In this document: positions 8,935-21,938 of the stretch, piece by piece
Layout of the letters: every line of letters begins with the position of its first letter
How positions within the stretch are numbered: position 1 is the first letter of the stretch
From: an uncultured Clostridia bacterium
Lineage (GTDB): Bacteria; Bacillota; Clostridia; Oscillospirales; Ruminococcaceae
NCBI GenBank assembly: GCA_947627205.1
Contig: CANQVE010000001.1
Coordinates: 124,001 to 188,000 of the forward strand
Length of the DNA stretch: 64,000 bases
Direction of reading: 5' to 3'
The notes under the pieces: generated by a model
Told to the model about the DNA's origin: nothing
What the model saw: only the letters and a program-made list of their open reading frames with translations
The model's database searches: none
Translations under genes and position numbers: made by a program

Positions 8935-9973
8935 CTCCCTTGTTTTCTATTTCAAGGCTCTCTTTTTCGGAGAGCATTGTCGATACCTTTTTGCTAAGAT
9001 ATTCCACATAGGGGATTATCTTTCTGTAGTCGAGCCTCATAGGACCTATTATGCCGAGCGTTCCCGCGGGCTTTCCGTCCTTATAATAGCTGGTGCTTAC
9101 CAGCGTTGAATTTGAAATGGCGAACGTTCCGCTTTCCTCGCCGAACTTTACGTTTATTCCCGAAAAAGCGTTGTCCAAAAACTCCGTAAGCTCTCCCTTT
9201 TTTTCGAGGAATTTCATAACGTCGTCCGCTTCAAATTCTCTGCAGGCAAGAAGATTTGCTTCTCCTCTCACGTCAACGCTGTCTTTCATCATCTCCTCGG
9301 AAAGCTCGTATACAGCGTTTATGAGGGGCGAGAGGGAAAGCATATAGCTTCCCATTGCCGCGACGACGCCGTTTACATATTCCTCGGACATATTTTCAAC
9401 GTTCATTCCGCACAGATGCTCGTTTAAAAAGCTCGTTATGCTCTGCATCTGCTCGTTCGTGAGGTCAAATTCCATGCGGCAGACCTTGTTTTTTATCGCG
9501 CCGTTCGACGTTATCATAAGCAGAACGTACATTCTTCTGCCCGTCGGAATGACTTCGACCTTTGAAATTACCGAAAACTTTGCCGCGTGATTTGTGGATA
9601 TCGCCGCGCATTTTGTAATTTCAGCGAGAGCCGTTCCCGCGTTTTCGACTATCGCCTCATCTGTCAATCCTCCGCTTTCGAGAAGCTCGTCTATCTGCGA
9701 GATTTTTTCAACGGAGAGCGGTTCGGGACACATAAGGTGGTCGATATAATACCTGAATCCCTTAAAGGTCGGAACTCTTCCCGCAGACGTGTGCGGGTGG
9801 TCGAGATAGCCCTCCTGTTCGAGTGCCGCCATTGTGTTGCGGATAGTGGCGGAGCTTACGCCGATATCGGACATTTCCGCAAGAGTTTTTGAGCCGACAG
9901 GCTCGCCCGTGCGGATATATTCGTCGATTATCGCGGTTAATATCTTCATTCCGCGCTGCTCCACGCAAACCAC
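8918..9973 (-). CDS. hrcA: Heat-inducible transcriptional repressor HrcA (GTG start as drawn)
   Basis: EPVGSKTLAE...VSSATIRNTMAALEQEGYLDHPHTSAGRVPT. Confidence 0.95.
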   Translation of the reverse strand: MVCVEQRGMKILTAIIDEYIRTGEPVGSKTLAEMSDIGVSSATIRNTMAALEQEGYLDHPHTSAGRVPTFKGFRYYIDHLMCPEPLSVEKISQIDELLESGGLTDEAIVENAGTALAEITKCAAISTNHAAKFSVISKVEVIPTGRRMYVLLMITSNGAIKNKVCRMEFDLTNEQMQSITSFLNEHLCGMNVENMSEEYVNGVVAAMGSYMLSLSPLINAVYELSEEMMKDSVDVRGEANLLACREFEADDVMKFLEKKGELTEFLDNAFSGINVKFGEESGTFAISNSTLVSTSYYKDGKPAGTLGIIGPMRLDYRKIIPYVEYLSKKVSTMLSEKESLEIENKGDDDDE

Positions 9974-9985
9974 TCCTTGCTTGTT

Positions 9986-10012
9986 TTAGCACTCTATCTC
10001 TTTGAGTGCTAA
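9986..10012. promoter_or_regulatory. CIRCE operator (HrcA binding site)
   Basis: TTAGCACTC-N9-GAGTGCTAA, perfect consensus. Confidence 0.97.
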
Positions 10013-10202
10013 ATATAATTTAACACAATTATAAACGTTTGTCAAGTGTTTTTGAAAAATAATTACACAAATAATTAAAATAATTTCACACAAATTTGTG
10101 GAATTTCACTATATGATTAAAAACAACTAATAAAACAACTAACCACCTTTTGGTTTTTGCGTCTATAAACCAAAAAACTTGATCCAAGAAAAAGAGCTTA
10201 GG

Positions 10203-15871: not shown

Positions 15872-16004
15872 TTCAGACTGTATATAAAGCCCCATCTACT
15901 TCGTCAGCGTAACTGCGGCAGGCACAAAGCCTAGCCGCAGCCACGCTTCAGCGTTGCACGCGAAGCGTTCAATGCGGTATCTGGGACTTTCTCTACAGTC
16001 TGAA
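15872..16004. repeat. ~130-bp palindromic intergenic repeat element, copy 1
   Basis: CAGACTGTATATAAAGCCCCATCTAC...GTATCTGGGACTTTCTCTACAGTCTG; internal hairpin 15913-15940; homologous to 21776-21905. Confidence 0.9.
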
Positions 16005-16085
16005 ATTTGACTTTATATAGCTTCTTTTTATTATTTTTCCCCTGCTATGCGGGGGAAAACATATACTGTTTTAAAGGAGTTTTTT

Positions 16086-21763: not shown

Positions 21764-21775
21764 AATTTTCTCCTC

Positions 21776-21905
21776 CAGACTGTATATAAAGCCCCATCTA
21801 CGTCGTATGGTTATCCGCCAAAGGCGGATAACACGGTCACTGCAACAGCCACAAAGGCTAGTTGCAGTAACGCTTCCTAGTATCTGGGGCTTTCTCTACA
21901 GTCTG
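21776..21905. repeat. ~130-bp palindromic intergenic repeat element, copy 2
   Basis: CAGACTGTATATAAAGCCCCATCTAC...GTATCTGGGGCTTTCTCTACAGTCTG; hairpins TTATCCGCC-AAA-GGCGGATAA and 21840-21867. Confidence 0.9.
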
Positions 21906-21938
21906 AAGTTGGACTTATTATACAGTTTATATTATTTT

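Follow-up and report, generated by a model that had tools for sequence, protein, structure and literature searches.

The window, the 64,000-nucleotide stretch of Clostridia DNA analyzed here, contains two copies of an intergenic repeat, one between pgk and tpiA and the other between the gene for fumarase alpha and an amidohydrolase gene (Table 1). A scan of the window detected only these two, at exactly the coordinates proposed in the initial annotation. The extent given there holds for both copies except on the right, where the repeat continues for 24 bp with a third terminal unit that is intact as AAGCAGGACTTTTTATACAGTCTG in other copies. The CTCCTC of the fumarase alpha gene, a Shine-Dalgarno complement, stands directly beside the start of copy 2 (21764–21775), and the element may therefore have displaced the upstream region of that gene.

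Table 1. Parts of the two repeat copies in the window. For the cores, the strand is the folded one.
Feature	Position	Strand	Sequence	Remarks
Copy 1, element core, 129 bp	15874..16002	-		Model R1, 70.8 bits
Copy 1, apical hairpin	15913..15940	-	CTGCGGCAGGCACAAAGCCTAGCCGCAG	Conserved pentaloop and bulged base
Copy 1, 27-nt hairpin module	15950..15976	+	AGCGTTGCACGCGAAGCGTTCAATGCG	Replaces CTA of the 105-bp core
Copy 1, third terminal unit	16003..16026	+	AAATTTGACTTTATATAGCTTCTT	Degenerate; presumed true right end
Copy 2, element core, 130 bp	21776..21905	-		Model R1, 60.7 bits; adjoins the fumarase Shine-Dalgarno region
Copy 2, hairpin module, ~30 nt	21807..21836	+	ATGGTTATCCGCCAAAGGCGGATAACACGG	Inserted in the 5′ arm
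Copy 2, apical hairpin	21840..21867	-	CTGCAACAGCCACAAAGGCTAGTTGCAG	Compensatory variant of copy 1
Copy 2, third terminal unit	21906..21929	+	AAGTTGGACTTATTATACAGTTTA	Right end

The apical hairpins of the two copies differ by the compensatory changes originally described, with GG/CC becoming AA/TT (two pairs) and G/C becoming C/G (one pair) around an unchanged pentaloop that reads ACAAA as written and UUUGU on the minus strand. Compared with dinucleotide shuffles, the strand as written folds with z scores of −7.2 (copy 1) and −9.2 (copy 2), and the opposite strand with z scores of −9.1 and −11.1. The remark that the repeat is not recognizable as a named family agrees with the Rfam scans: the window gave no match for the element at the gathering score, and ten loci scanned at E up to 5 gave nothing for it, only a neighboring tRNA passing the gathering score. 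No description of these elements was found in the literature searched; as this comprised open-access papers only, their absence from it is weak evidence that they are new. A list of 250 palindromic candidate RNAs from human microbiomes has been given by Fremin and Bhatt (PMC8040213).

Copies, modules and target sites

Further copies, on which the initial annotation had made its reading depend, run to dozens per genome both in the window genome (approximately 35–45) and in its congeners, of which 41 of 43 carry the repeat. Named relatives of the window genome are MAGs from rabbit and deer gut. Copy number is patchy, from 0 to 70 per congener, and the core is absent from two near-complete congeners (G036 and G042), which shows it to be dispensable for the host. 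The element is 129–180 bp long, is bounded by terminal inverted repeats (TIRs; ends CAGNCTGT / CAGCTTGT) and has no transposase gene inside. Its commonest form is a 105-bp core followed by the 24-bp, TIR-like third unit, which in most copies forms the actual right end. Longer forms, both window copies included, carry hairpin modules of 24–30 nt at one to three positions, and copies differ in length by such modules (24–30 bp) at differing places; one orthologous site is found with and without a module (L197 and L198).

The modules also lead a separate existence. One of them, AGCGTT..GAA..AATGCG, the module by which L197 and L198 differ, occurs alone elsewhere in the window genome. The 27-nt module of copy 1 stands alone in a further repeat, ACTGTACACAGCG...ATGCGTACACTGTCAAC (L229–L234; G000 contigs C47, C40, C8, C5, and C13), and contains GCGAAGC, an unusually stable DNA mini-hairpin. 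At three pairs of orthologous insertions (L197/L198, L195/L117, and L119/L113), whole modules and the 24-bp right unit differ together with neighboring bases, which looks like recombination between copies. A second MITE family of 231–238 bp (G000 contig C22, L090:1046–1283 and 9841–10071) shares its left end, CAGNCTGTATATAAAGCC, with the main family and has TATACAAGCTG as right end; its two copies are inverted, approximately 9 kb apart, with right ends that abut terminator hairpins, and enclose several ORFs that by eye are HipA-like, zeta-like, and nucleotidyltransferase-like. Solitary short palindromes such as CAGGCTGTTGAGAAAGCCTG (G000: L093, L096, L097) resemble a single end folded on itself.

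In the search for target-site duplications (TSDs), an element was considered to end behind its third unit if it had one, and the control paired the left flank of one copy with the right flank of another. TSDs of at least 5 bp flank 36 of 144 copies, compared with 0.6% of mismatched flanks, and their lengths are bimodal (4–10 bp and 20–34 bp). The ten long TSDs are hairpins, nearly all terminator-like and complete on each side (e.g., L086, ACCTGAGAAGCATAATGCCTCTCAGGT; L141, AGCCGCTCCGTTAGGGGCGGCT), and whole hairpins occupy both flanks of L086, L107, L111, L134, L141, and L203. A hairpin ends 0–1 bp before the left boundary in 26 copies, and 12 copies have one starting 0–1 bp past the right boundary, over a background of 0–3 copies at nearly any other distance. 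By the criterion used, 104 of the 144 copies have no TSD, through either decay or another mode of insertion. An empty site (L014) corresponds to the insertion in L117/L195, with AAAG as TSD. At pgk/tpiA of a sister species, the terminator has an inversely oriented copy (L113) on its other flank, which is thus an independent insertion. Orientation relative to the neighboring genes has no clear bias (++ 52, −− 37, +− 28, −+ 23), which argues against an element of mRNA. Short, without a transposase gene, and with TIRs, TSDs, and empty sites, the repeat is a MITE, a non-autonomous DNA transposon.

A probable driver is found in the genus of the window genome. The protein of an autonomous 1,551-bp element (L181:5573–7123, the same locus as L207) carries the Pfam domains DUF772 and DDE_Tnp_1_6 and is a transposase of the IS1182 family (NF033551, E 3.5e-113). 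The left end and the right unit of the MITE correspond to the ends of this element, CAGTCTGTATATAAACCCC and CAGCTTGTCCAAAAACCCC, and a 34-bp terminator hairpin is duplicated, with one copy on each side of the element. A second element (L208), whose gene has two stops, lies between two copies of a 21-bp hairpin, and the ends of further elements, mostly degenerate, also abut hairpins. In L209 (G027 contig C443) the terminator hairpins against which the two ends of an IS1182-family element lie differ from each other, perhaps as a result of recombination between copies. No DUF772 or IS1182 transposase gene was found in the window genome, and mobilization has therefore to be deduced from its relatives. 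From the ends and the preference for duplicated hairpin targets, which are common to the MITE and the IS1182-family elements, we infer that the MITE is moved by a DDE transposase of this family supplied in trans.

Folding and the selected strand

Pairing within the repeat is conserved well beyond the two window copies. RNAalifold applied to 57 non-redundant copies yields 39 pairs, 30 of which have changed on both sides, and 93% of the pairing cells are paired. Cells with two-sided changes number 313, compared with 77 in shuffled alignments (0/500), although the copies are related by descent and these cells do not count independent events. The covariation score is 0.39, compared with 0.12 for shuffled and at most 0.094 for slid alignments. 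Many unpaired positions, in GTCA, ACAAA, and TTCCT, are invariant or nearly so.

The strand on which selection acts is the complement of that assumed in the initial annotation. Mismatches in the helices, as written, are A·C in 100 cells compared with G·T in 35, and T·C in 25 compared with G·A in 3; A·C and T·C become G·T and G·A on the complement. The minus strand also folds better in 56 of the 57 copies with RNA parameters, and in all 57 with DNA parameters. Together, the biased mismatches and the stabler complement indicate that the functional strand in the window copies is the minus one (the CAAGGNAA...UUNACG strand), whose internal loops have conserved G·A mismatches. The suggestion that base pairing is under selection has fared well: selection for pairing is strongly supported by covariation in the alignments of the genus and, as described below, of 11 genera.

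The core in other Clostridia

Model R1 matched 13 genomes of other genera in the same family, and model R2, built from 34 copies in 11 genera, gave matches to the core in 25 genera, in 36 of the 392 Clostridia genomes scanned (MAG data, E-values per genome). Across the 11 genera the covariation score is 0.63, compared with 0.16 when shuffled, and 15 of 17 core pairs show two-sided changes in alignment A4, which was made, as was A5, by covariance models. Matches of the model to the wrong strand score up to 61 bits and any long hairpin gains score from its structure, so three further signs are relied on for the class-level core. First, CGTYA and KCCTNG are found again as unpaired motifs. Second, two columns that are unpaired in the models covary in approximately 111 of 116 copies, GTC being accompanied by TCC and GTT by GCC (several of the exceptions are text-matching errors), a non-Watson-Crick relation. 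Third, multi-copy families within single genomes have sharp ends. The strand bias is likewise repeated, the minus strand being the stabler in 34 of 35 cases.

In these genomes the core sits centrally in elements of 160–170 bp with unrelated ends. The families have ends GTAAACACTGATTAAAT (170 bp, with 4-bp TSDs, e.g., TTGA/TTGA), AGGGGCTATCTGAAAAG (163 bp, mostly TA-flanked), GGGTGTATCCGA (162 bp), AGAACCTGTATTCAATA (162–166 bp), and TTATACTAATC (165–168 bp). In the first two, designated b and c, the 66-nt core is 76% identical (50/66; alignment score 38, shuffled maximum 13.5), whereas the arms have no detectable similarity (score 5.5, shuffled mean 5.4). Because some of the TA-flanked families may have diverged from a single lineage, the safe count of independent end types is three. 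In family f55 (L294:282–500 and L306:1388–1605), cores form head-to-head pairs with a 13-bp spacing, a BIME-like arrangement present several times per genome.

The cultured Anaerotruncus colihominis VE303-02 has a related core-bearing element on a plasmid (NZ_CP094683.1:25376–25543, L342), where it lies between genes for a LacI-type regulator and a sugar kinase. BLAST searches of plasmids and phages with family b gave one A. colihominis plasmid and two fecal phage scaffolds, and those with the window element or the f55 families gave no match; the exact core pattern was not found in IMG/VR. We read the core as portable, carried by several kinds of MITE across Clostridia.

Interpretation and comparison with known systems

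The initial annotation offered a structured RNA or a hairpin-transposed repeat, and was nearly right on both counts, as the repeat combines a DDE-type MITE with a conserved folded core. Taken together, a MITE moved by an IS1182-family transposase and a folded core likely to act as a candidate RNA form the best explanation, to which we assign a probability of roughly 0.6. The MITE would move as DNA, with the transposase acting in trans. Judging from the anatomy of the insertions, the transposase would attack each strand at the 5′ foot of a terminator hairpin extruded as a cruciform, and repair would then copy the hairpin to both sides of the insertion. The core, less certainly, would be a transcribed RNA with the sequence of the minus strand in the window copies; as a cargo it would allow an insertion to be tolerated or to spread, and several types of transposon may have taken it up, much as IStrons have group I introns. 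RNA is favored since elements with different ends share the core, which makes it unlikely to be the binding site of one transposase. Since the core is dispensable to the host and its orientation has no clear bias, any benefit is more likely to fall to the element. We propose tentatively, stopping just short of calling it probable, that these cores constitute an undescribed portable class, a candidate RNA that serves the transposon rather than the host in an IStron-like symbiosis without the intron.

The second possibility, ranked after RNA, is a role of the core in transposition as single-stranded DNA, in which the folded minus strand would be a hairpin recognized by the transposition or replication machinery, by attC-like logic with a DDE enzyme. 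G·T and G·A mismatches are tolerated in DNA as in RNA, and those retained on the minus strand are mostly of these kinds; this strand is stabler with DNA parameters too (57/57 and 34/35), and both the head-to-head cores of f55 and an orientation to genes that shows no clear bias would suit such a role. However, at least three end/TSD types carry the core, which makes recognition by a single enzyme unlikely, and most high-copy genomes have no Y1 transposase, leaving this explanation rather unlikely.

We consider it improbable that the repeat is an ordinary MITE, with covariation produced by matched TIRs and by template-switch correction of quasi-palindromes and no selection on a folded strand. 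TIRs must fit the transposase, which couples the two arms, recombination between copies is seen (L197 and L198), and stable hairpins are general in MITEs (PMC10969869). Yet the central core covaries outside the TIRs (15 of 17 pairs in A4), its unpaired motifs are nearly invariant, and cores are alike where arms differ; mismatches are retained with a strand bias, whereas template switching removes mismatches. That a transposon-derived MITE might account for the structure, the alternative allowed for in the initial annotation, is thus borne out for the MITE and fails for the accounting, because covariation of the core, fixed unpaired bases, strand bias, and unrelated ends are left unexplained. 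Least probable by some way is a cis-regulatory or terminator RNA fixed next to genes, which the position at gene ends beside terminators would fit but which, as the main explanation, is refuted by TSDs, empty sites, patchy copy number, and copies in both orientations and every gene arrangement without clear bias.

Several known identities were considered and rejected. An integron attC site does not fit, as by inspection of alignments A1, A4, and A5 the RYYYAAC partner box of the R/L boxes (RYYYAAC...GTTRRRY) is absent. A hammerhead-like reading of the minus strand (CUGACGA ... GGAA) fails, as motifs arranged in this order about one hairpin do not make a three-way junction. REP/REPIN sequences with RAYT are likewise intergenic palindromes that also form inverted pairs, but the elements described here have DDE-type TIRs and TSDs, and a Y1/RAYT driver is rejected, with Y1 genes in only 9 of 43 genomes and none in G000, G029, G031, G034, or G040.

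To our knowledge, BOX, RUP, SPRITE, and ERIC are each confined to few genera and to one set of ends; here, in contrast, one core with strand-specific covariation is found class-wide with unrelated ends. They resemble the present repeat in their stable RNA structure and, in some cases, modularity, and as intergenic, MITE-like repeats of approximately 100–200 bp in many copies (PMC3049150 for the pneumococcal BOX, RUP, and SPRITE). The core may account for many intergenic palindromes of gut Clostridia, which the covariance model could be used to annotate, and the A. colihominis strain offers a cultured carrier of a related core, on its plasmid, for testing.

The IS1272/IS1182 family (PMC5678879) is comparable in its transposase, its hairpin or palindrome targets, and its variable terminal copies; the 25-bp tandem duplication at the left end of IS1272L (PMC5678879) resembles the 24-bp third unit of the MITE. 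IS1272 replaces its target stem-loop and leaves no TSD (PMC5678879). Such replacement is rejected here, as whole hairpins remain at both flanks, and the present element differs further in being non-autonomous and in carrying a folded core. Duplication of a whole stem-loop corresponds to the theoretical pathway b of Wan et al. (PMC5678879), and the insertions would, if correctly interpreted, be natural evidence for this so far theoretical IS1182-family route.

IStrons themselves are rejected as an identity, since no intron family appeared in the Rfam scans and the element is approximately 100 nt. Unlike them, it has no intron, known catalytic core, or internal transposase. IStrons are nevertheless the nearest precedent, as one RNA structural class joined to different IS families in Firmicutes, and have been interpreted as a repeated symbiosis of RNA and transposon (PMC4227781). 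If our reading is true, the core joins the few examples of a repeated alliance between DNA transposons and a structured nucleic acid.
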